Shown here piece after piece: positions 3,851-53,674 of a DNA stretch of 64,000 bases. Source of the stretch: Odiellus spinosus (taxonomy: Eukaryota; Arthropoda; Arachnida; Opiliones; Phalangiidae). Positions within the stretch are counted from its first letter, which is position 1. Each line of letters opens with the position of its first letter. The notes beneath the pieces were generated by a model. That model had not been told where the DNA came from. It was given only the letters and a program-made list of their open reading frames with translations, and ran no database searches. The DNA lies in NCBI GenBank assembly GCA_963920705.1, contig OY987228.1, forward strand, positions 12,817,187-12,881,186, written 5' to 3'. The position numbers and the translations under genes are program-made.

Positions 3851-4539
3851 TCCGAATGCGAGGGTAGAGAACAAGTTAGGCCTTGGTTTCATGGTCTAGG
3901 ATAAAATAAGATGGTTAGATGAGAAGAGGAGAGTGAGGAGGGGGTCAGAGAGATCGGTTCCGAGGTAATTACAGCTCTGCTCCTTCAATTTTAATGACCT
4001 TTTCTGTTGGGAAGATTATAGCGAGAATTCTACGCTGCTCGATCTAACCAAAGCCGAGCTGATAAATTACTAAGCCCGCTACGCAGAGATGTATACTATG
4101 TTATTAAAAAAACATACCTATATTGCGTGCATATATATGAACTGAGTTATATATAAATTAAAAAGTGATACTCAAACGCTCCAACAACATTAATTTTATC
4201 AAATTATTTGGAATTCTCACAAAATTATTTTTTTCTTATTATTTAAGTTATGATTATTTAAAGTTTTATAAATTTACATGGCTGTCTCTGTACACGTCTT
4301 GCGGCCCATGGAGCTTTTCATATTGGGGTTCCCACTATGGAGGATTGTTTTTATCTATCCAAACACACCCATGCGCCAAGACAGTTACTGAAAATCATAT
4401 CTCATGATGTATTTAAATTCCACATGTGACCTAATATTTTTACTGGTGGTTAAATTTGAAAAATCATTTGTTTTTTAAGCTATTTTCACAGTTTAAGATC
4501 ACTAAGTGTCATGAGATTCTTCACCATCGTGGGCGAAGT
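3851..4539. other. Unassigned spacer with a weak hairpin
   Basis: There is no gene. GTCTTG...CATGG near 4291-4312 can pair imperfectly with CCATGCGCCAAGAC at about 4368-4381, a weak hairpin that may be a decayed fold-back element. The rest is AT-rich. Confidence 0.4.
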
Positions 4540-4690
4540 TGCACGCAGTCCCTCTTGGGTAAGAATAGAAATGTCAACAGGCAACTCCAGGTGGGACTAT
4601 GGGTGCCCTGTCTAGCTAGAGGTTTAGGGCACCACCTGGAATTAGCTGTTAACGTTTCTATTCTTACTCAAGATGGAGGGCATGCCCATT
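4540..4690. repeat. Imperfect inverted repeat (fold-back, ~65-bp arms)
   Basis: The left arm (about 4541-4610) contains GGGTAAGAATAGAAATGTCA and AACTCCAGGTGG. The right arm (about 4626-4690), read on the minus strand, contains GAGTAAGAATAGAAACGTTA and AATTCCAGGTGG. Both arms end at a GTGCCCT/AGGGCAC pair around a short loop. This fits an old MITE or fold-back element. No target duplication could be assigned. It lies just left of a better-preserved element at 4746-5036. Confidence 0.6.
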
Positions 4691-4738
4691 CGAGTTTCTC
4701 TGTGTGAATTTATGAATCTGTATATAGCACGAAACTTA

Positions 4739-5043
4739 TCATAACCAAGAAGGATCAGACAAGGAGAGGAAAAGTGGGGACGGCGCAGTTCCTACTGCGT
4801 CGGCCTAAACTCCCACTCTGGGAGAACGCGGGTAGAGATGTTTCGTGGTAAAATGTTGTCACGTGGGTAAAACGGATCCTTTATCAGCTTCGTAGTAGCC
4901 AACGACGCTAGAGACCACGTGACAACAGTTTACCTCGAGAATTTCCTATCCCCCTTTCCACCCGAGTGGGAGGTTGGCTCTTCTCTCTCTAACTCAACGC
5001 AGCCCTACTTTTCCTCTCCTTGTCTGATCCTTCTTGTCATAAC
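4739..5043. mobile_element. Fold-back MITE with perfect 7-bp target duplication (TCATAAC)
   Basis: The element body is 4746-5036 (291 bp). Both ends start, reading inward, with CAAGAAGGATCAGACAAGGA, and near-identical sequence continues for about 35 bp. Imperfect pairing continues to GTCACGTGG (4858-4866) against CCACGTGAC (4915-4923), so most of the element is arms around a ~48-base centre. TCATAAC is present directly outside both ends (4739-4745 and 5037-5043), which fixes the boundaries. No transposase is encoded. Open frames overlapping it are incidental. The superfamily is unassigned; two further elements in the window share the 7-bp duplication and similar end bases. Confidence 0.85.
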
Positions 5044-6802: not shown

Positions 6803-9442
6803 GTGCGCGGGGGTTTTCGGGGAACGACGTGCGCGGGGGTTTTCGGGGAACGACGTGCGCGGGGGTTTTCGGGGAACGACGTGCGCGGGGGTTTTCGGGG
6901 AACGACGTGCGCGGGGGTTTTCGGGGAACGACGTGCGCGGGGGTTTTCGGGGAACGACGTGCGCGGGGGTTTTCGGGGAACGACGTGCGCGGGGGTTTTC
7001 GGGGAACGACGTGCGCGGGGGTTTTCGGGGAACGACGTGCGCGGGGGTTTTCGGGGAACGACGTGCGCGGGGGTTTTCGGGGAACGACGTGCGCGGGGGT
7101 TTTCGGGGAACGACGTGCGCGGGGGTTTTCGGGGAACGACGTGCGCGGGGGTTTTCGGGGAACGACGTGCGCGGGGGTTTTCGGGGAACGACGTGCGCGG
7201 GGGTTTTCGGGGAACGACGTGCGCGGGGGTTTTCGGGGAACGACGTGCGCGGGGGTTTTCGGGGAACGACGTGCGCGGGGGTTTTCGGGGAACGACGTGC
7301 GCGGGGGTTTTCGGGGAACGACGTGCGCGGGGGTTTTCGGGGAACGACGTGCGCGGGGGTTTTCGGGGAACGACGTGCGCGGGGGTTTTCGGGGAACGAC
7401 GTGCGCGGGGGTTTTCGGGGAACGACGTGCGCGGGGGTTTTCGGGGAACGACGTGCGCGGGGGTTTTCGGGGAACGACGTGCGCGGGGGTTTTCGGGGAA
7501 CGACGTGCGCGGGGGTTTTCGGGGAACGACGTGCGCGGGGGTTTTCGGGGAACGACGTGCGCGGGGGTTTTCGGGGAACGACGTGCGCGGGGGTTTTCGG
7601 GGAACGACGTGCGCGGGGGTTTTCGGGGAACGACGTGCGCGGGGGTTTTCGGGGAACGACGTGCGCGGGGGTTTTCGGGGAACGACGTGCGCGGGGGTTT
7701 TCGGGGAACGACGTGCGCGGGGGTTTTCGGGGAACGACGTGCGCGGGGGTTTTCGGGGAACGACGTGCGCGGGGGTTTTCGGGGAACGACGTGCGCGGGG
7801 GTTTTCGGGGAACGACGTGCGCGGGGGTTTTCGGGGAACGACGTGCGCGGGGGTTTTCGGGGAACGACGTGCGCGGGGGTTTTCGGGGAACGACGTGCGC
7901 GGGGGTTTTCGGGGAACGACGTGCGCGGGGGTTTTCGGGGAACGACGTGCGCGGGGGTTTTCGGGGAACGACGTGCGCGGGGGTTTTCGGGGAACGACGT
8001 GCGCGGGGGTTTTCGGGGAACGACGTGCGCGGGGGTTTTCGGGGAACGACGTGCGCGGGGGTTTTCGGGGAACGACGTGCGCGGGGGTTTTCGGGGAACG
8101 ACGTGCGCGGGGGTTTTCGGGGAACGACGTGCGCGGGGGTTTTCGGGGAACGACGTGCGCGGGGGTTTTCGGGGAACGACGTGCGCGGGGGTTTTCGGGG
8201 AACGACGTGCGCGGGGGTTTTCGGGGAACGACGTGCGCGGGGGTTTTCGGGGAACGACGTGCGCGGGGGTTTTCGGGGAACGACGTGCGCGGGGGTTTTC
8301 GGGGAACGACGTGCGCGGGGGTTTTCGGGGAACGACGTGCGCGGGGGTTTTCGGGGAACGACGTGCGCGGGGGTTTTCGGGGAACGACGTGCGCGGGGGT
8401 TTTCGGGGAACGACGTGCGCGGGGGTTTTCGGGGAACGACGTGCGCGGGGGTTTTCGGGGAACGACGTGCGCGGGGGTTTTCGGGGAACGACGTGCGCGG
8501 GGGTTTTCGGGGAACGACGTGCGCGGGGGTTTTCGGGGAACGACGTGCGCGGGGGTTTTCGGGGAACGACGTGCGCGGGGGTTTTCGGGGAACGACGTGC
8601 GCGGGGGTTTTCGGGGAACGACGTGCGCGGGGGTTTTCGGGGAACGACGTGCGCGGGGGTTTTCGGGGAACGACGTGCGCGGGGGTTTTCGGGGAACGAC
8701 GTGCGCGGGGGTTTTCGGGGAACGACGTGCGCGGGGGTTTTCGGGGAACGACGTGCGCGGGGGTTTTCGGGGAACGACGTGCGCGGGGGTTTTCGGGGAA
8801 CGACGTGCGCGGGGGTTTTCGGGGAACGACGTGCGCGGGGGTTTTCGGGGAACGACGTGCGCGGGGGTTTTCGGGGAACGACGTGCGCGGGGGTTTTCGG
8901 GGAACGACGTGCGCGGGGGTTTTCGGGGAACGACGTGCGCGGGGGTTTTCGGGGAACGACGTGCGCGGGGGTTTTCGGGGAACGACGTGCGCGGGGGTTT
9001 TCGGGGAACGACGTGCGCGGGGGTTTTCGGGGAACGACGTGCGCGGGGGTTTTCGGGGAACGACGTGCGCGGGGGTTTTCGGGGAACGACGTGCGCGGGG
9101 GTTTTCGGGGAACGACGTGCGCGGGGGTTTTCGGGGAACGACGTGCGCGGGGGTTTTCGGGGAACGACGTGCGCGGGGGTTTTCGGGGAACGACGTGCGC
9201 GGGGGTTTTCGGGGAACGACGTGCGCGGGGGTTTTCGGGGAACGACGTGCGCGGGGGTTTTCGGGGAACGACGTGCGCGGGGGTTTTCGGGGAACGACGT
9301 GCGCGGGGGTTTTCGGGGAACGACGTGCGCGGGGGTTTTCGGGGAACGACGTGCGCGGGGGTTTTCGGGGAACGACGTGCGCGGGGGTTTTCGGGGAACG
9401 ACGTGCGCGGGGGTTTTCGGGGAACGACGTGCGCGGGGGTTT
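6803..9442. repeat. 26-bp GC-rich satellite, ~101.5 identical tandem units
   Basis: From 6805 to 9442 the sequence is an uninterrupted array of one 26-bp unit. It begins GCGCGGGGGTTTTCGGGG and closes with AACGACGT. 2638 bases equal 101 units plus 12 bases, so no indel is present and I saw no substitution. The unit is 18/26 G+C with five CpGs, against AT-rich surroundings. It has no stop codon in any of the six frames, and 26 is not divisible by 3. Frames of ~870-900 codons therefore appear in all three plus frames and on the minus strand, with a 26-residue period, and should not be called genes. The last unit breaks off at GGGGGTTT before AAGAGG. Confidence 0.98.
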
Positions 9443-11156
9443 AAGAGGTTTATTTCGCATGGTTTAAAATCAAAGTTCGTAGGTTAGCATGCCAAAGTAC
9501 ACTCCATGCATTTTTGCTAAATTCAAGCTCTCATGTTTGATCATGTTAAACCAATTTCGATCAAACAAGGTAAGAAATTTTCTCTGCACACTATGACATT
9601 AATATGGGACCCAAAAAAAAAATGCCTATATATTTTTCAGCCTCGCAGCTCGCTTAATATTCATTAATCTAGCTGGTAGCAACGATAAAAACAAAGATAA
9701 GATTTTTTTGGTTGGTTACATGGATGAGGGAAACGAAAACCGCTTAAGAGTGATGAGGTGCTATGGCAACCGCGCGTTTTATAATATATATGGAACAATA
9801 GTAGCGGCTCTGGTTATTCCATCTATCGGAGAATTTCGCAAACATTTACGGCTCGCAAATAAGCGTGACGGATTGCGTGAGGCCCTGGCGCTTACATATA
9901 CTTCTCGTTTCGAGGCTCGTTACTTCGCAAAAAATAAAATAAAGAAACGCAATGAAAAGTAGCACGTATAAGCGTCTATATTATATAACCCTCTAATGGG
10001 AATGTAACCAGAATCACTTAGTGTTTGCATCGCGTACAAAGTTAGCCCTCTCATTCATGTATAAGAAACTGAATCATAGATATAAAGGTTAACTTAATTT
10101 TACACCCGCTTCAATTTATGTCTGGTTCTGATTATATTCGTAACCAAGATCAGTTAAAATGAACTAATTTTATACTTATTGGAGTTAGCATCGAGTATTA
10201 ATACGCCTCAACTTTCAGTTTATTGCAGACTGAAATGGGAACGTCGTATAAAAGCTATTTTGTGATACATCCGACTGGGGCTTCCGCTGCCGAAAATTAA
10301 AGCCGAAAAACTAAGGGCGATTCAGTGTGGCACGACTTGGTACCGGAATAATTGGAAAGCACGCTGCGTATTACAATATATAACGAATCAATCAGAGACC
10401 TCCGTACGAACAAATATAACCCCTCCCCTTTAGTTATGTAACCAAATTAAAGAGATTTCAGAGTTTCCCTGGTTTGTCGCGTTGTTGAATACACCGATCG
10501 TTTCTGGACTTTCATATACGGATTTACGCGACAAAAATGTTTAATGATTATTTATGCTAGGAGTAATTATAAGTAGCTCGACGACGAGAAATACGCGTGT
10601 TATATACGTGCTATAATATTTAAATTATGTAATGTTTCCCCGCAAGAATGATTTTAAATAACACTTTCATAAAAAGGTGTTCAGCCCCATTTTAAAATTA
10701 TAAAGTTTGAAAAGCTTACAAATATAAGTATATATAATAAATATACATATTTAGAAAGTGGAGCTCCGTTTAACATCATAATTACACAGAAAAAGTCCTA
10801 TATTATTAAAATATTATAAATTAAATTGAATACCTAAACGTATATTTTCCCAGAAGGATGATTTTATAAAACATTACTAAAAAGGTGTTATTATTATTAA
10901 CATGTTTAATAACCAGGAAAACATACCAAGCGATATTTGACTTATTGCTTAAAGAGCCCCACCCCTCAACGCGTGACAAAACTATATTGATTCTCTTGAA
11001 TTGACGTTGCTGATGGTAACATATTTAATTATTGCCCTTGTTACGATCCGGTTTTGTCTAAGGAAAATAAGACCCGCCTTCTCCTTCATACCCCCTCCCA
11101 TCAAGGTTAAATATTCCTAAATATTAAAATTTGAAAAAGCCATGGAACAGATGAAT
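9443..11156. other. Unassigned AT-rich DNA with a diverged direct repeat
   Basis: There is no gene. An 84-codon frame at 9708-9962 is unrecognised. Two related segments, about 10636-10682 and 10847-10891, share AAGAATGATTTTA/AAGGATGATTTTA and end AAAAAGGTGTT, suggesting an old ~210-bp duplication. A family B copy at 10161-10218 is listed separately. Confidence 0.5.
10161..10218 (+). repeat. Short dispersed repeat, family B, copy 1
   Basis: The core GTTAGCATCGAGTATTAATA is followed by CGCCTCAACTTT. The same block, in the same orientation, recurs near 28.07, 35.83 and 37.60 kb with T-rich sequence upstream and a CAGTTTT-like segment downstream. The outer limits are uncertain. Confidence 0.5.
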
Positions 11157-11425
11157 AATTAAAATCATATAAGGAAGATACACATGGCAAAGAAATCTAA
11201 AAACTTTTTAATAAAGTTTAGTTAATACATAGTGGGATGTAAAGGATCCCGACCCAGTGAGAGCTTTCGGTTACGTATAACCTTTATTCGATTGATAAAG
11301 GTTATACGTAACCGAAAGCTCTCACTGGGTCGGGATCCTTTACATCCCACTATGTATTAACTAAACTTTATTAAAAAGTTTTTAGATTTCTTTGCCATGT
11401 GTATCTTCCTTATATGATTTTAATT
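11157..11425. repeat. Perfect palindrome: 131-bp arms, 7-base loop
   Basis: 11157-11287 and 11295-11425 are exact reverse complements by base-by-base comparison, separated by TCGATTG. The arms begin AATTAAAATCATATAAGG. No target duplication touches the ends, though a 12-bp direct repeat GTTAAATATTCC lies outside at 11106-11117 and 11426-11437. It could be a fold-back transposon, a template-switch inverted duplication, or an assembly or library hairpin artefact. No known family recognised. Confidence 0.95.
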
Positions 11426-13568
11426 GTTAAATATTCCATCTAGAAGTCTTTTTGCGGATGGGCGTGTCTTCCCCCCTCCCTCTTTTCGTGCGAGGAATAA
11501 TTTCTCTACACGGTTTAAAACTAGAAAAAGTGAGACACGTCACGAAAGTCACCTTTATCTAATTGGTTGGGAGGTCTACCATATTCGGCAAAAAGTTTAT
11601 ATTTATATTTAATTCATGTATTAGAATGTTATATTTTCATAATAAGGAGGTCAGTTTCACTTTCAATTTTTTTACTATAAAATAAATATCTAAACACATT
11701 GAGAATCAAAGTACAAGTGCTCAAATTCTAAAATTAAAGTGTTATTTGGCAATGCTATTGGTTATGATGACAGAACAGAGGTCATGAGTAGAAAGTGTTG
11801 TCAGTGAACAACAATGTATCTTTATATTTATGCAATTAATTTAAACTAAACAATAATGCGTGATGAAATTTAAATTTATCTCTTAAAATTTCTGCTTTGT
11901 AATTTAAATAAAATTTTATAAAATTGCGTCTCATATTATTCAAAACATGAACATAATCGGAAACATGAAATCTTCAACTCAACCTTTCAATTAAGTTAAT
12001 AAAAATCATTTCTACAGTAATTTAAGCCAGAAATTTAAGCAAATTTAGAAATATTATTTGATCATCTTATTTTAAAGGTCGAATTTCGTAAGGCAATTGG
12101 ACGAAAATCAAAATTAAGCTCGGGCTTACCAATAAATTGACATAGTGTTTGTTTTTTTTTTTTTCCTATAAAAGCCGTTAGAACGGCCGTAAAATGATGA
12201 TGGTACTGTAATATGAGTGTGCCATGGAACTATATGGTGATTATAAAATAGCGACTGACCAATAGGGGTTAGATCTCAGGGGTACGATGTCGAGAAACCT
12301 TTCTAACGCAGTACATCCAAAAAATATTCTTTAATCGAATAGGTTTCGACGCATGCGGTAAATTAAACCTATCCCTTATTGCTTAACTTCTTCGGTTAAA
12401 AAAAAAAAATAACGGTTTATTGAAACGCTTCAAGAATTTTAATAAACTACCCACCAACACATAATACGTATATACAAAAAGAGGGGAACTTTCCTTACAT
12501 ATAGAAAGAGCTAGCCTATCGCGTATAAAATATTGCACACAAAAAAGTTTTGCAAAAAATAACTCGCGCATATTCAATTTTCTAGGCCTTATATCCTTAC
12601 CCCTCGTTCGAATGAGCCACATTATTTAAGTTGGTTTAATGCGGCCGATTTTTCAATTTCGTGGGAGCCAAGAAGAAGAAAAAAACTGCGGGGCATCTAG
12701 AGTCTAAGGGGGCTTAAGCTTATTCGAGTTTCTTACTCGTTATAATACCCGTTTATCATTAATGCTACGTGGAAGAAAACTTTTTAAAGAAAAAAATTCT
12801 GAAGCAATTTACCCTTTTTGCCTACAGAATGCTAGTTTAACTTTTTCGGAAGCTGTGCCTTGGTTCTTCTAAAGAAAAAAAAAAAATAGTTGAAACGCCA
12901 TTATGGTGTTTGTTTCACTCACAGATTTCAAATAGAGCAACCCTAATATTTGTAAAATATAGGGAAAGATAGTTCAGTATGCGCAGAATTTTCAAACCTA
13001 TTCTAACCATAATACTTCCCCCAAATAAAAAAAGTTTTCTTTTGGAAGCTAGCTTGTTTAGTTACGGACCATCAGGCATATTGCTCTTTTCGTGAGGCGT
13101 AGGGGCTCGGGCACTATAGCGATAACCTAAAAACCCTACGACGCGGGAATTTTGTATTGAATTCTAACAGGCGACATTAAAAAACCATATCACGCGGGTG
13201 TAGGAGAACAATTTTGATACGATATGACTATACTGCAGGAGGGGGTAAAGGGGAAAAGACCCCATCTTCTGGTATACGGGAGGAGAAGTTGAGGGGTGAA
13301 CCCCTCAGGTCCCATTAGAAAACAAAAGGCACCCTGGCACCGATGGACGTTTCTACATGTATAAAACCTCTGCTACACGCGTAATACGCGGAGAAAACAC
13401 ACGATTTCCCCAACAGCAATCTTCCCCACCTTTTCATGATTGCATATTTGTCCCTAAGTGCCGTTTTAGAGCAAAGGAAGAAGAAAAAAACGCGCCACCA
13501 GTGGTGGAAACACGTGTTGTTAAACGTAAGTGTGGGGATATCTTAGGAGTTCACCTCCTACCATCATT
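11426..13568. other. Unassigned AT-rich DNA
   Basis: There is no gene. A 62-codon frame at 11424-11612 and a 78-codon frame at 13357-13593 are unrecognised. Small self-complementary spots include GAGGGGTGAACCCCTC at about 13292 and a homopolymer T tract near 12150. Confidence 0.5.
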
Positions 13569-16700: not shown

Positions 16701-16928
16701 AAGATGTTTTGCGAGATTTCTTATTCAAAAATATTAAATGATCTGATTAGACTTACTACGCAAATGTTTTGGAATATATTATAATATTGTAATATCAGAA
16801 ATAGATGAACCGAAATTATCAACGAGCTATTCCTCTAACGCCACAGGCAAGTTCTCCGTTTCCCCTCTCTTAGACGACAGTTGTAGCCCCCTCCCCCGCG
16901 GAATTTCGCCTAGCCGAGAAACGTTGAA

Positions 16929-16941
16929 TGCGCCACCTGGC
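16929..16941 (-). promoter_or_regulatory. CTCF-like core (GCGCCACCTGG)
   Basis: Read on the minus strand this is CCAGGTGGCGC, close to the conserved animal CTCF core. Motif only: occupancy is unknown, and similar strings also ride inside arthropod repeats. Confidence 0.35.
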
Positions 16942-17910
16942 TTGGTTTGCAGCCGTCGCTACGTGGGGCGATCAGTTTCCCAAGATCCTCCTCGGTATTT
17001 CATTGAGGCCGAGGAAGCCCATTCCCCCAGTGCTTACCCTCCCCATTCACTCCAAATAAAATGCATTTCCCAATCTAAGCTCTCGTTGATAATTTCGGTT
17101 CATCTATTTCTGGTAATATCTTAGAAATATTTACTCTTACCAATATCAGAAGCTTAAAGTGAGGCTGTCACCATGTACAGTTTAATCATACTATTAGTGT
17201 TCTTAAAAAATATCTGGATGAAGTACTTTTACGAAAAAGACCGCGCGAAAGTGATCTTATCACGTGCCACAACGTGCAAGAATCAACTGCAGGATCTACA
17301 ATAGTCACGCGATCATAGTACGATGATCTAGTAATGCGGGGAATTTTTATTTTAAAAATTTCGATAATAAAATGTGTATTTTTACAGTCGCGGTAATTGT
17401 GTCAAGACAAAAGTATTTATATCTTGAATCGTTTGTTAACGATCTTTCGGAAAATGCTACTCAATTTCCATTTGAAGTTTCTGAAAATACATGACAGCAT
17501 CACTTGATAAAATCCGCTCCAAGTTTTAGTAAACGGCTGCTAAAATTAATTATAATAAAACTAATATAAAATTGTAGACTCGCCGCGGGTGTGAATATTC
17601 CACTAAATATTAGTGTAATTTAAATAATGCAAGTCATGACAATCTAATCAGCCATTCATTTTGAAAGTTAAGCTAATAACATTTTATTCCAATACTGAAG
17701 CCTAGCTAATTAATTTAAATTTTGAAACTTATATTCGAATACACGAGCAAAAATCTGAAAATAAAATCCTCTGTATTTTTTAAATAAATCCATCCATTGG
17801 ACAAATAAAACCGCCCTGTGAATCGCCATCAAAAACCTGGTGTTGATTTTTAAGCACGGCTTCACACAGGTCTTAACACCTTAGCAGACGACACAAAATG
17901 ATCAGCGCCG

Positions 17911-20815: not shown

Positions 20816-22066
20816 TTACGCTGGCTAACGGTTTGTTAAAACAATTCGAGGATCTTTTCTCTATACAAATTATTTCTTCCATTCATTGGGAGTAAGAAAT
20901 GAATAAAAAATATATACCTTTTCATCATCCCTTAAAAACACGTTTAATCTATTATTTTTATAAAAGCGCTAAAGCGGAAATTTAGAAAATTTTAATACGA
21001 AGAATAATACCTTCTTGGCGTTCCCGCGGCGCAACGTTCGCCGCGTTATATTTCTAGCTAATATTTAATACCGGTAAATAAAGAAAGCCGTAATTGATGA
21101 CCCAAGTTCGCTAATCAAGCGTTTTATAATACAAAGTCGCTATAGAAAGGCAAAAGGGCGCGCGAGAGAGAAAATATATGTCGTCGAGTCGCCACCAGGG
21201 GTCCAACCGAAACAATGTAAACCCAGATAGGACTCGAGTTATATAGAAGAGACCAGGCAGGCCTGGGCCGCCCTCGTCGCGCAATGGAGAGAACCGATAA
21301 GGCTTCTGATGAATCGCGCCTTCAAACTTCAAGCAAAGCTACGGCAAACCTTGGCCAAGCTCTATAACACCGCGAGTTTACATAGTTCGCGTCCTCATTG
21401 TTTGTTCCCAAATTTTTAAAATAAAATAAAAGATATAAGCCTTGGCCAACACCAGCCAAAAATTCTACACACCCTTCTCCAACCCTAAACCCTCGATTCT
21501 AAGTTTGTCAAATTTATATAACACCCTATCGCTTTTCCTCACCCGGTTGGACTTCGAAAAATACATATTTCAATTCCAAAACTAAATACGTAACGCTATG
21601 ACCTATCCGATCTTCGTAATATTTTTCTACTGGATTGATTGGTCATTTGGTCTTGTTAATTTTTCGTACCGACGAAAATTACCTTTAGTTTTGAAGTTAC
21701 TTAATTTATGAGGGTTAGGATGGAGGTATCCCTCCGCGGTACCGATGCACTTATTAACATGAAAGGGTATTTTCGACAAAACTGGCCATTTCAGGGAGAG
21801 TTCGAGAAAAATCTCGATATTTTTAAGCTATAAAATGATTTAAATAGTGCCATGCCAATTAAGATGTTAGTAATATAACTATTTTCAAATTGACAATTCA
21901 GTTCGCGCCTGTAAAAGTATCCTTGCTCTAATACAAAAGCTCTCGCGGAAAAGCTTGCGCAAAGGGTGAAATAATCCTGCGCTTTTTATATTATGCCCCT
22001 GTAGAAGTGTTTCACTTACGAAGCACCGATGTTCAAGGAAAAGCTTACAATTGAAGAATCCTTTAA
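20816..22066. other. Unassigned DNA
   Basis: I see no gene. A 73-codon minus-strand frame at 21111-21332 has no recognised domain. A CG-richer spot lies at about 21018-21048. Confidence 0.5.
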
Positions 22067-22268
22067 TACATAGTTTTCAGTAAAGGGGCAAAAGAAAATT
22101 CCACCCCTCTTACCCAGCTTTGCTTTCATTCCCAGGTTGCCAGGAGCTTGTGAGTGCAGTTCAGAACAGATCAGTTTCAAAACTGAACTCTAGCCTTTCC
22201 CTCTGCACTCACAAGTGGTTGGCAACATGGGGGGAACGGCACTTATCCCCTTTAGTGAAAACTATGTA
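22067..22268. mobile_element. TA-flanked MITE (Tc1/mariner-like size and target)
   Basis: The body is 22069-22266 (198 bp). The left end, CATAGTTTTCAGTAAAGGGG, matches the reverse complement of the right end, CATAGTTTTCACTAAAGGGG. Further inside, GGTTGCCAGGAGCTTGTGAG (from 22135) pairs imperfectly with CTCACAAGTGGTTGGCAAC (about 22208-22226), extending into GTGCAG/CTGCAC. TA lies outside both ends. TA targets are typical of the Tc1/mariner superfamily, but the terminal bases alone do not prove it. It is non-autonomous; the short frame inside is incidental. Confidence 0.75.
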
Positions 22269-23418
22269 TATTATCCTGACAAAAAAGCTAAATTCCAAAA
22301 TATAAAATTAAATTATTCGTAGAGAGCAATTATTTAATATTCTTTTTGCATCTAAGGTTTTCCAAAACAAATAAAAGATAAATTACAATTTAACATCAAA
22401 ACATTCCATTAAAGTATAAATATATATTTTTAAGACAAATCTAGGTCAAATAATTTAATTAAAACTCGATTTCTCTGCAAAACAGTTAAGGAAATTATTT
22501 TCACAATTGAACTACATTACATGGGGATTCAAAGAAGCTAATGCGCTTCCGAGAAGAGGGCTCTTATCCCTCGCAACAACGTCATTAGAACCCTACGTGT
22601 ATTGGAGTTCATTGTAGATCCAATAACCCACAAGCATATTTATGTATTAGTCCAACGAATATTCGCACCCTTTTCCTTAAAGTTATCTATAAAATGACTT
22701 CATAAATGTAATTTAAAAACAAGTTTTCCTATAGAAAATAATACTAATATATCAAAATAATTTTAATAAATTAACTTAAAAAAAAAATGCTATTTTAGGA
22801 CTTTATTATTTTTAAGCTATAGCGAGCGAGTCGACACCCTCCCATCAATGTTATTACAATTCTGTTCGTCGCGTGAAAAGCCAGACTGGAAACCAATAAA
22901 TTATTCCGTAGTTTGTTCGACTTATTTAAGCGAATTCGTACAAAGGTGGATAGGGTTGGTTTTACTCATCATCCTAATGTTAAGCTTTTCTACTTGAATC
23001 TCTAGCCTATGGTTATTAGCTCTAATACGTTTAACAGAGGCGACTCATCGTGGGAGAACAACGCGGAATTGCACGGGGAAGAAATTGAGGGAGAGAGTGA
23101 GAGCCGCATGGAATACATACAGACAAGGACGGGCTACTTAGAACACGAGCGTGGAGAATTCGCATTCATCCGGGGTTTTCTGACACGCGCTACTAGACTT
23201 TTTTCCATCCAATCACCGTAACTGACTTATACACGCGTGAATTTGCTCCATTTCGGGACCCCATTTTAAAGGGAGAGTGAATGTTAAGAAGTAAAAATCA
23301 TTTATAATGGATGTCTTAAGTTATATGCCTATCAGCTTAATGGACCAATTCAAACAGAAGCTTTCCTAAACCAGAATTAGCAAAGAGTATCCATAGTAAA
23401 TCCCATCTCGATTTGATA
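22269..23418. other. Unassigned AT-rich DNA
   Basis: I see no gene or bounded repeat. A 70-codon frame at 23009-23221 is unrecognised. Confidence 0.5.
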
Positions 23419-31096: not shown

Positions 31097-31320
31097 GACT
31101 ATTAACAATGGATACCTATCTTAATAGATAAAGATGAATAACGAAACTTCGAGTTCATAAGCATCCTCTAACGGCAAACAGTAACAAAACCTCGTGCGTT
31201 GTTACTATGGATAAAGAATAGGCAGACGCGCACGTGGTTTTGTTAGTTACTATTTTTGCCACTGTTTGCCGTTAGAGGATGCTTATGAACGCCAGGGTTT
31301 GTTATTAAACAATAGTAAAT
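31097..31320. mobile_element. Family D inverted-repeat element, copy 1
   Basis: The left arm (31137-31198) contains GTTCATAAGCATCCTCTAAC then GGCAAACAGT. The right arm (31228-31306) contains the exact complement of that block (GTTAGAGGATGCTTATGAAC) and extra bases absent from the left arm. Both arms also pair at CTCGTGCG/CGCACGTG and AATAAC/GTTATT. The flank ACTATTAACAATGG through AAAGATGAATAAC recurs at 50.58 kb, so this is a dispersed element rather than a one-off hairpin. The target duplication is not identified. Confidence 0.7.
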
Positions 31321-34816: not shown

Positions 34817-35146
34817 GTTATACCAAGAATTCATTCAGGTTCCATAAGAATATGGGAGGGCCGCGATTCCATAACCATCCTCCCAAACTTTGTAGCAAAA
34901 GTTCGTCTGCTTCGAATCGATTTTTCAAGTAAATCGCTCTGATATTATATTATTAACCCGCGCCACTAACGACCTGGACATATTATTTTGGGTAATAAAA
35001 ATGGAGCCGACCGAAAAAAGATCTAAGCGTACAAATGTTGCGAAAATTGCAGACGAACTTTTGTTACAAAGTTTGGGAGGATGGTACCAGAGGCTAAAGC
35101 TATGCTGCCATATTCTTATGGAACCTGAATGGATTCTTGGTTATAC
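34817..35146. mobile_element. Fold-back MITE with perfect 7-bp target duplication (GTTATAC)
   Basis: The body is 34824-35139 (316 bp). The ends read inward CAAGAATTCATTCAGGTTCC (left) and CAAGAATCCATTCAGGTTCC (right, minus strand). Each is followed by ATAAGAATATGG. Pairing resumes further in at CATCCTCCCAAACTTTGTAG against the complement, up to TTCGTCTGC. GTTATAC flanks both sides (34817-34823 and 35140-35146). A reading with CCAAG ends and a 5-bp TTATA duplication is also possible. No transposase. It matches the elements at 4.75 and 53.35 kb in size and duplication length. Confidence 0.85.
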
Positions 35147-36513: not shown

Positions 36514-37519
36514 GATTATTTAAATGAGCAAATGAAATTATTCGTATTAATTGAGCAAATGAAATTATTCGTATTAAATGAGCAAATGAAATTATTCGTA
36601 TTAAATGAGCAAATGAAATTATTCGTATTAAATGAGCAAATGAAATTATTCGTATTTAATGAGCAAATGAAATTATTCGTATTAAATGAGCAAATGAAAT
36701 TATTCGTATTAAATGAGCAAATGAAATTATTCGTATTAAATGAGCAAATGAAATTATTCGTATTAAATGAGCAAATGAAATTATTCGTATTAAATGAGCA
36801 AATGAAATTATTCGTATTAAATGAGCAAATGAAATTATTCGTTTTAAATGAGCAAATGAAATTATTCGTTTTAAATGAGCAAATGAAATTATTCGTATTA
36901 AATGAGCAAATGAAATTATTCGTATTAAATGAGCAAATGAAATTATTCGTATTAAATGAGCAAATGAAATTATTCGTATTAAATGAGCAAATGAAATTAT
37001 TCGTATTAAATGAGCAAATGAAATTATTCGTATTAAATGAGCAAATGAAATTATTCGTATTAAATGAGCAAATGAAATTATTCGTATTAAATGAGCAAAT
37101 GAAATTATTCGTATTAAATGAGCAAATGAAATTATTCGTATTAAATGAGCAAATGAAATTATTCGTATTAAATGAGCAAATGAAATTATTCGTATTAAAT
37201 GAGCAAATGAAATTATTCGTATTAAATGAGCAAATGAAATTATTCGTATTAAATGAGCAAATGAAATTATTCGTATTAAATGAGCAAATGAAATTACTCG
37301 TATTAAATGAGCAAATGAAATTACTCGTATTAAATGAGCAAATGAAATTACTCGTATTAAATGAGCAAATGAAATTACTCGTATTAAATGAGCAAATGAA
37401 ATTACTCGTATTAAATGAGCAAATGAAATTACTCGTATTAAATGAGCAAATGAAATTACTCGTATTAAATGAGCGAATGAAATTACTCGTATTAAATGAG
37501 CGAATCAAATTATTTCGAT
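36514..37519. repeat. 27-bp minisatellite, 36 full units, polar variants
   Basis: Units of 27 bp run from 36532 to 37503 (972 bases, exactly 36) with partial or decayed units at each edge. The unit contains GAGCAAATGAAATTATTCG followed by TATTAAAT. Variants are grouped: T for A (GTTTTAAAT) in two adjacent units at 36829-36882; ATTACTCG instead of ATTATTCG in the last eight units (37288-37503); GAGCGAATG near the end. Because 27 is 9 codons and the unit lacks stops, both strands stay open for 345 codons (plus strand MKLFVLNEQ repeated). No non-repetitive coding flank supports a real gene. Confidence 0.97.
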
Positions 37520-53339: not shown

Positions 53340-53674
53340 GTTTAGACAGAAGCCGATGAAACCCTCCTTTGTAGTCTATTACTCCCGGGTCTTGTCTACC
53401 CCTCTCTGTATGGGTTAGTTTCAAAAAGCGCGATTCGTACGCCTTTTCGGAGCGGGAGTTCGTCGAGCGAATATCTCTAGCAGCCTTGGAGTTCGTCAAA
53501 AAAACGTCGTTGTTTGATGAGAGAGAGAATTTCCAATTTTCCGTAGACAGGGGGTATGAAGTAGGACCCCTCCGATCTCGTAAAATTAGGAATTTTACCA
53601 TACAGAGAGGAGCGCTATATGGAGCATTAGAGTAGTAGACTTCAAAGGAGGGTTTCATCGGCTTCTGGTTTAGA
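53340..53674. mobile_element. Fold-back MITE with perfect 7-bp target duplication (GTTTAGA)
   Basis: The body is 53347-53667 (321 bp). Both ends read inward CAGAAGCCGATGAAACCCTC followed by CTTTG(T/A)AGTCTA. A second paired block further in is CCTCTCTGTATGG (left, from about 53400) against its complement (about 53598-53610). GTTTAGA lies directly outside each end (53340-53346, 53668-53674). A 108-codon minus-strand frame covers most of it but has no transposase features and is incidental. The length and 7-bp duplication match the elements at 4.75 and 34.82 kb. Confidence 0.85.

Follow-up and report, generated by a model that had tools for sequence, protein, structure and literature searches.

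Fold-back elements with 7-bp target duplications in Odiellus spinosus: probable P-superfamily MITEs and their likely excision scars

Fold-back elements of about 300 bp, each flanked by a perfect 7-bp direct repeat, occur in this stretch of the Odiellus spinosus genome, and they raise the question as to which kind of enzyme moves them. An earlier note on this DNA described three such elements, regarded the 7-bp duplication as unusual and proposed that they form one non-autonomous group mobilised by the same, possibly undescribed, transposase. The window, by which we mean the whole stretch of 64,000 nucleotides under analysis, lies on contig C4; the genome comprises 443 Mb in 286 contigs.

Fold-back elements of the window and their genomic copies

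When the window was scanned for inverted ends with flanking direct repeats, 7-bp cases came up at the elements termed A, C and D, while element B was seen only in a shifted 5-bp register, since the exact repeat at its outer edge spans 7 nt and the search seed one nucleotide more. In 30 dinucleotide-preserving shuffles of the window, duplications of 6 bp or more never arose, and those of 5 bp arose in ten cases. The elements and their flanking duplications are as follows.

4739..4745, no strand: left 7-bp target duplication of element A, TCATAAC
4746..5036, + strand: element A, 291-bp fold-back MITE, terminal repeats CAAGAAGGATCAGACAAGG...
5037..5043, no strand: right 7-bp target duplication of element A, TCATAAC
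16789..16795, no strand: left 7-bp target duplication of element D, GTAATAT
16796..17112, + strand: element D, 317-bp fold-back element, terminal repeats CAGAAATAGATGAACCGA... (31 nt exact)
17113..17119, no strand: right 7-bp target duplication of element D, GTAATAT
34817..34823, no strand: left 7-bp target duplication of element B, GTTATAC
34824..35139, + strand: element B, 316-bp fold-back MITE, terminal repeats CAAGAATYCATTCAGGTTCCAT...
35140..35146, no strand: right 7-bp target duplication of element B, GTTATAC
53340..53346, no strand: left 7-bp target duplication of element C, GTTTAGA
53347..53667, + strand: element C, 321-bp fold-back MITE, terminal repeats CAGAAGCCGATGAAACCCTCC...
53668..53674, no strand: right 7-bp target duplication of element C, GTTTAGA

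The three elements noted earlier (A, B and C) are therefore real, with the sizes and duplications originally read for them, but the set was incomplete, the fourth (D) having been missed. All four have CA...TG ends, and their arms measure approximately 30-90 bp; those of A pair over 34 nt (97%), and the ends of D read CAGAAATAGATGAACC.

Other repeats lie in the same window. A near-perfect palindrome at 11154-11428 has 134-nt arms (99% complementary) and a 7-nt spacer, without a 7-bp duplication, and two more fold-back stretches, at 4534-4692 and 31137-31306 (arms of 61 and 53 nt), have no detectable duplication. The ends of an inverted-repeat element at 22066-22269 can be read as TA-flanked, and it is possibly a Tc1/mariner-type MITE. 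Two tandem arrays were also observed: one at 6803-9442, of a 26-bp GC-rich unit (GTGCGCGGGGGTTTTCGGGGAACGAC; 101.5 copies, 100% match) in AT-rich surroundings and with open frames of approximately 870-900 aa, and one at 36520-37514, of a 27-bp unit (36.9 copies, 98% match) that is open on both strands.

Element A has near-identical copies at 40 or more genomic places, the best 40 of 1762 candidates matching approximately its full 291 bp at 99-100% identity, and its exact 19-nt end gave 842 + 862 genome matches, with none for the control. Families B and C are also high-copy: among the best 40 of 2021 candidates scored for B the top copies reach 97-98%, and among the best 40 of 625 scored for C they reach 91-93%. 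Since the best-scoring copies were taken, those that were read are biased towards young ones. With lengths taken directly outside the aligned element (in some copies, adjacent bases agree by chance, so that another register would give a longer repeat), an exact 7-bp duplication flanks 28 of 30 copies of family A, the window copy included, and in none of the 28 does it extend to 8 bp; of the two exceptions, L004 differs at one base and L030 has an indel at the element end. The duplication is likewise exact in seven of ten copies of B (one mismatch in L090 and L093, no duplication in L098) and in nine of ten copies of C (one mismatch in L100). Hence, the constancy of the 7-bp duplication that had been claimed from single copies is borne out within three families, every exact case in this tabulation being of 7 bp.

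This length bears on the superfamily. hAT duplications are of 8 bp, a length not found in any exact case of A, B or C, and the 9-11 bp of Mutator and Foldback elements were not found in them either. A constant duplication of 7 or 8 bp, the pattern of the P superfamily, was found in all three families.

P-superfamily transposases and the search for an autonomous partner

The P-superfamily transposase domain PF21787 is abundant in this genome: the best 150 of 386 candidate places all score above the curated cut-off, and the domain was found in none of 14 control genomes. By eye, and among the places scored, P-transposase places cluster on C1 at approximately 3-8 Mb, on C2 at approximately 29-32 Mb, and on C45 and C8. 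For two P families the ends were set by comparison of copies. The first (L064/L065) is 5670 bp long, with copies 99.95% identical, ends CATAGACTAAGAACGGG and duplications GTCTGTC and ATATTAT; the second (L066/L067) is 3777 bp long, with copies 100% identical, ends CGGTGCCTCCGAGATCC and duplications TTTGAAG and ATTATAC. Thus all four copies have exact 7-bp duplications, although in L065 a 9-bp repeat, its register shifted by one base, can also be read. The ORFs of the two families (856 and 801 aa) contain THAP, TNP-like_RNaseH_N and TNP-like_GBD domains, the GTP-binding insertion domain being present in both, and they match the structure of the Drosophila P transposase (6p5a) with E values of 5.4e-19 and 3.3e-21. 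For a third P family, with a 626-aa ORF, the ends were searched for and not found. Since two P families carry 7-bp duplications, P-type elements have transposed with a 7-bp stagger in this genome, and since their ends are unrelated, the genome holds several P transposases.

A longer copy with the ends of A, B or C and a transposase gene, the partner that the earlier note had proposed to look for, did not turn up among the matches listed. Exact matches to the A end, compared by eye with the P-transposase places of C1, gave none closer than 5 kb among the matches listed, which lie nearly all on C1, and no A, B or C end was found around 30 P loci searched with 1.5-kb flanks. Patterns that exclude the MITE's own continuation gave 134 matches for A, 249 for C and 78 for B (100, 100 and 78 of them listed); by eye, the matches listed contain no facing pair at 1.5-10 kb, and they represent short-deletion copies, scars and unrelated repeats. 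The non-autonomous nature of the elements, as originally proposed, is supported.

Several candidates were rejected in the course of this search. A facing pair 5.4 kb apart (C1:7977381/7982816; L061) consists of separate MITE copies and is no autonomous element, and an A-like stretch in L034 is a chance resemblance. The sequence CAAGAAGGATCAGACACTTTAAAAGGG is not an element end, since the flank upstream of it is conserved too (L068/L069), which places it inside another repeat; the candidate ends L070/L071, with a conserved upstream flank, likewise lie inside another repeat.

Joined-end sites of families A and B

Palindromes made of two A ends first surfaced with the pattern that excludes the MITE's continuation. 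A genome search with the pattern CAAGAAGGATC N0-26 GATCCTTCTTG returned 48 sites of 23-35 bp that consist of two A ends in head-to-head orientation, and the reversed-pattern control returned none. The majority, 33, are 23 bp long; one is of 27 bp, five of 28, one of 29 and four of 30 bp, with one each of 31, 32, 33 and 35 bp. The flanks of all 48 were read, and 42 of them show an exact 7-bp duplication, three a duplication with one mismatch, and the remaining three have two, three and six mismatches. Three of the sites (L075, L162 and L076) are one duplicated locus, and leaving out L076 and L162 gives 40 exact duplications in 46 scars.

Shorter A sites, of 18-22 bp, number 37 and include 29 copies of the 18-mer CAAGAAGGATCCTTCTTG. 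This 18-mer was searched for on the prediction that GATC would anneal, two tandem 18-mers having already been seen, so that the search was not fully blind. Twenty of the 37 short sites were read, and among the 19 18-mers the duplication is exact in 11, has one mismatch in five and four or five mismatches in three; a 20-mer (L189) was rejected as a scar, as it belongs to a larger palindrome. In those of the 48 sites of 23-35 bp whose duplication has one mismatch or none, 14 or 11 nt of the A end usually remain on each side, and 18 nt is the maximum. Two local arrangements may be mentioned here. At L169 (G000 C5:16248790-16248900), two 18-bp A scars stand in tandem, 29 bp apart, within a local duplication, and four identical 22-bp joined ends (CAAGAAGGATCAGACCTTCTTG) occur at C2:29082412, 30769543 and 31463499 and at C113:795614 (G000); the three on C2 lie within 2.4 Mb, and the four are perhaps one scar that was segmentally duplicated.

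Family B provides 24 joined-end sites, with none in its control, of which 15 have exact duplications, three have one mismatch and six have two to five. The remnant per side reaches 22-24 nt, 10 of the 24 sites being 42-44 bp long; 22-23 nt is the safer figure for B, since bases of microhomology are counted on both sides. An exact duplication is thus missing from 6 of 48 A scars, 8 of 19 18-mers and 9 of 24 B scars, and these inexact cases include three A scars with two or more mismatches, and three 18-mers and five B scars with three or more.

It could be argued that the short head-to-head sites are MITE copies with big internal deletions, which were inserted in that form or decayed in place. 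Deletion copies do exist in family A: a 139-bp copy and a rearranged one are known (L063 and L062), and there is a copy of 62 bp. Random internal deletion, however, would be expected to yield a broad range of lengths, whereas beside the 48 A sites of 23-35 bp there are none of 36-48 bp and only two of 49-79 bp, these being the 62-bp copy and a pair of tandem 18-mers. Furthermore, the A remnant ends at 18 nt per side, and the commonest forms match microhomology within the terminal 14-18 nt, namely GATC in the 18-mer and GA in the 23-mer. We therefore regard deletion as a quite improbable origin of these sites as a group, though it may account for single ones, and read them as scars of excision. 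Among the open-licence papers surveyed, we found no catalogue of natural P-type scars.

The probable mobilising enzyme and its proposed cut positions

The combined observations make it very probable that A, B and C, and probably D, are P-superfamily MITEs mobilised in trans by P-type transposases. What can be read directly from the DNA is the 7-bp duplications, the CA...TG ends, the duplication-flanked scars and the genomic P transposases with their own 7-bp duplications; a P-type enzyme acting on A, B and C, with the cut positions proposed below, is the most likely reading of these. A, B and C are new families of a known kind.

The appeal to an undescribed transposase has become unneeded, since 7-bp duplications are made by two P families of the same genome and are also reported for Galileo, a member of the P superfamily (PMC2775673, PMC4168063). 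That some other or undescribed superfamily moves the elements (hAT, Mutator or a Foldback lineage with a 7-bp stagger) now seems very unlikely. It would accord with the finding that the matches listed contain no autonomous P element with A, B or C ends, and a 936-bp inverted-repeat element of Meloidogyne, its class left unstated in the text concerned, has 7-bp duplications (PMC3169594). Duplications of 8 bp, as described for Drosophila P, zebrafish Pdre2 and the Anopheles P-MITEs, also count against assigning 7-bp elements to the P superfamily, as do the third P family, for which no ends were found, the B remnants longer than 17 nt and the scars that have no exact duplication. Two P families of this genome, however, produce duplications of exactly 7 bp, and the long terminal remnants at the donor site, read in the scars of A, B and C, are the P pattern. 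Scars of hAT and Mutator elements are not known to retain long terminal remnants. Fold-back elements with 7-bp duplications are, in consequence, no longer evidence for an unknown class of transposase. The proposal that one transposase serves A, B, C and D as a single group fares little better, and we consider it unlikely. The four are alike in duplication length, in their CA...TG ends and in size (291-321 bp), but the matches between A, B and C are short (8-18 nt) and scattered, for which reason mobilisation by several P-type enzymes is no less likely. Their scar remnants also differ (18 nt in A against 22-24 nt in B), their target motifs differ somewhat, and the unrelated ends of the two P families already imply more than one P transposase in the genome.

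Under mobilisation by P-type transposases, the enzyme would cut precisely at each 3' end of the element and, on the other strand, far inside the terminal repeat, so that the donor site would retain a long 3' single-stranded piece of both element ends. Insertion at positions staggered by 7 bp would give the 7-bp duplication, and end joining of the donor break would leave a scar made of the duplication and 11-18 nt (A) or 10-24 nt (B) of each end. The three main forms of A fit particular repair routes: the palindromic GATC of both tails would anneal in the 18-mer, a 2-bp GA overlap would be used in the 23-mer, and a direct join at nucleotide 14 would produce the 28-mer.

In Drosophila, the P transposase is reported to cut the other strand 17 nt within the terminal repeat (PMC7776569), and in P repair products the 8-bp duplication remains together with as many as 17 nt from each end, which meet at a microhomology or at filler sequence (PMC2895639). 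The scars described here have the layout of the D. melanogaster excision products (duplication, remnant, junction, remnant, duplication; PMC2895639), but differ from the 17-nt tails and 8 bp of that system in their 7-bp duplications and in remnants of up to 18 nt (A) and 22-24 nt (B). Galileo resembles the present elements in being Foldback-like, in its 7-bp duplications and in the frequency of non-autonomous copies (PMC2775673, PMC4168063); compared by description, it differs in the terminal repeats of its described copies, which run to hundreds of bp, where the whole elements here are of some 300 bp. Three Galileo copies of D. willistoni are reported with 8-bp duplications (PMC4168063). The Anopheles gambiae P-MITEs are also P-superfamily MITEs found alongside P transposases, but they have 8-bp duplications and subterminal similarity to known autonomous P elements (PMC1562414), unlike the elements here, which have 7 bp and for which no autonomous partner was found among the matches listed. 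Tm1 of Meloidogyne has a 9-bp duplication (PMC3169594).

The target motifs give a mixed picture. After symmetrising of the strands, which gives each consensus its palindromic shape, family C yields GTANTAC (10 sites), family B RTANTAY (22 sites, the window copy left out) and family A RTTNAAY (81 sites, scars included). 1360/Hoppel/ProtoP makes 7-bp duplications. It is a member of the P superfamily, named beside Galileo and P, and the target consensus of Galileo is given as GTANTAC (PMC4168063). C matches this consensus and B is close to it, while the A motif (GTTNAAC/ATTNAAT) differs, a point against the P-superfamily reading.

The 17-nt stagger of the P transposase, studied in Drosophila, is regarded as unusual among cut-and-paste transposons. 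The family B remnants of up to 22-24 nt suggest a longer stagger than that of Drosophila P; as they exceed 17 nt, either the stagger would be longer or limited synthesis would precede joining. It is a tentative proposal, and one we hold with somewhat less than even confidence, that the P-type stagger is not fixed at 17 nt, approximately 18 nt being left in A and 22-23 nt in B. If the stagger does vary by family in this manner, the cut positions of so far unstudied P-superfamily transposases could be read from natural MITE scars. With more than 100 natural joined-end sites of P-type MITEs (48 + 37 of A, 24 of B), many with the duplication intact, the genome offers a natural data set on the cut sites of such enzymes and on the germline repair of long 3' tails, in which differences in stagger between families can be tested.

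For family C, two scars were recognised by eye among the matches listed (L163 and L164), with exact duplications AAAACAT and CCAATCG. Finally, on C7 (G000 C7:18637910-18637934) a C-type end, CAGAAGCCGATGAAA, abuts CAAGAAGGAT, the start of A; this junction is possibly an A element inserted into a C end or scar.
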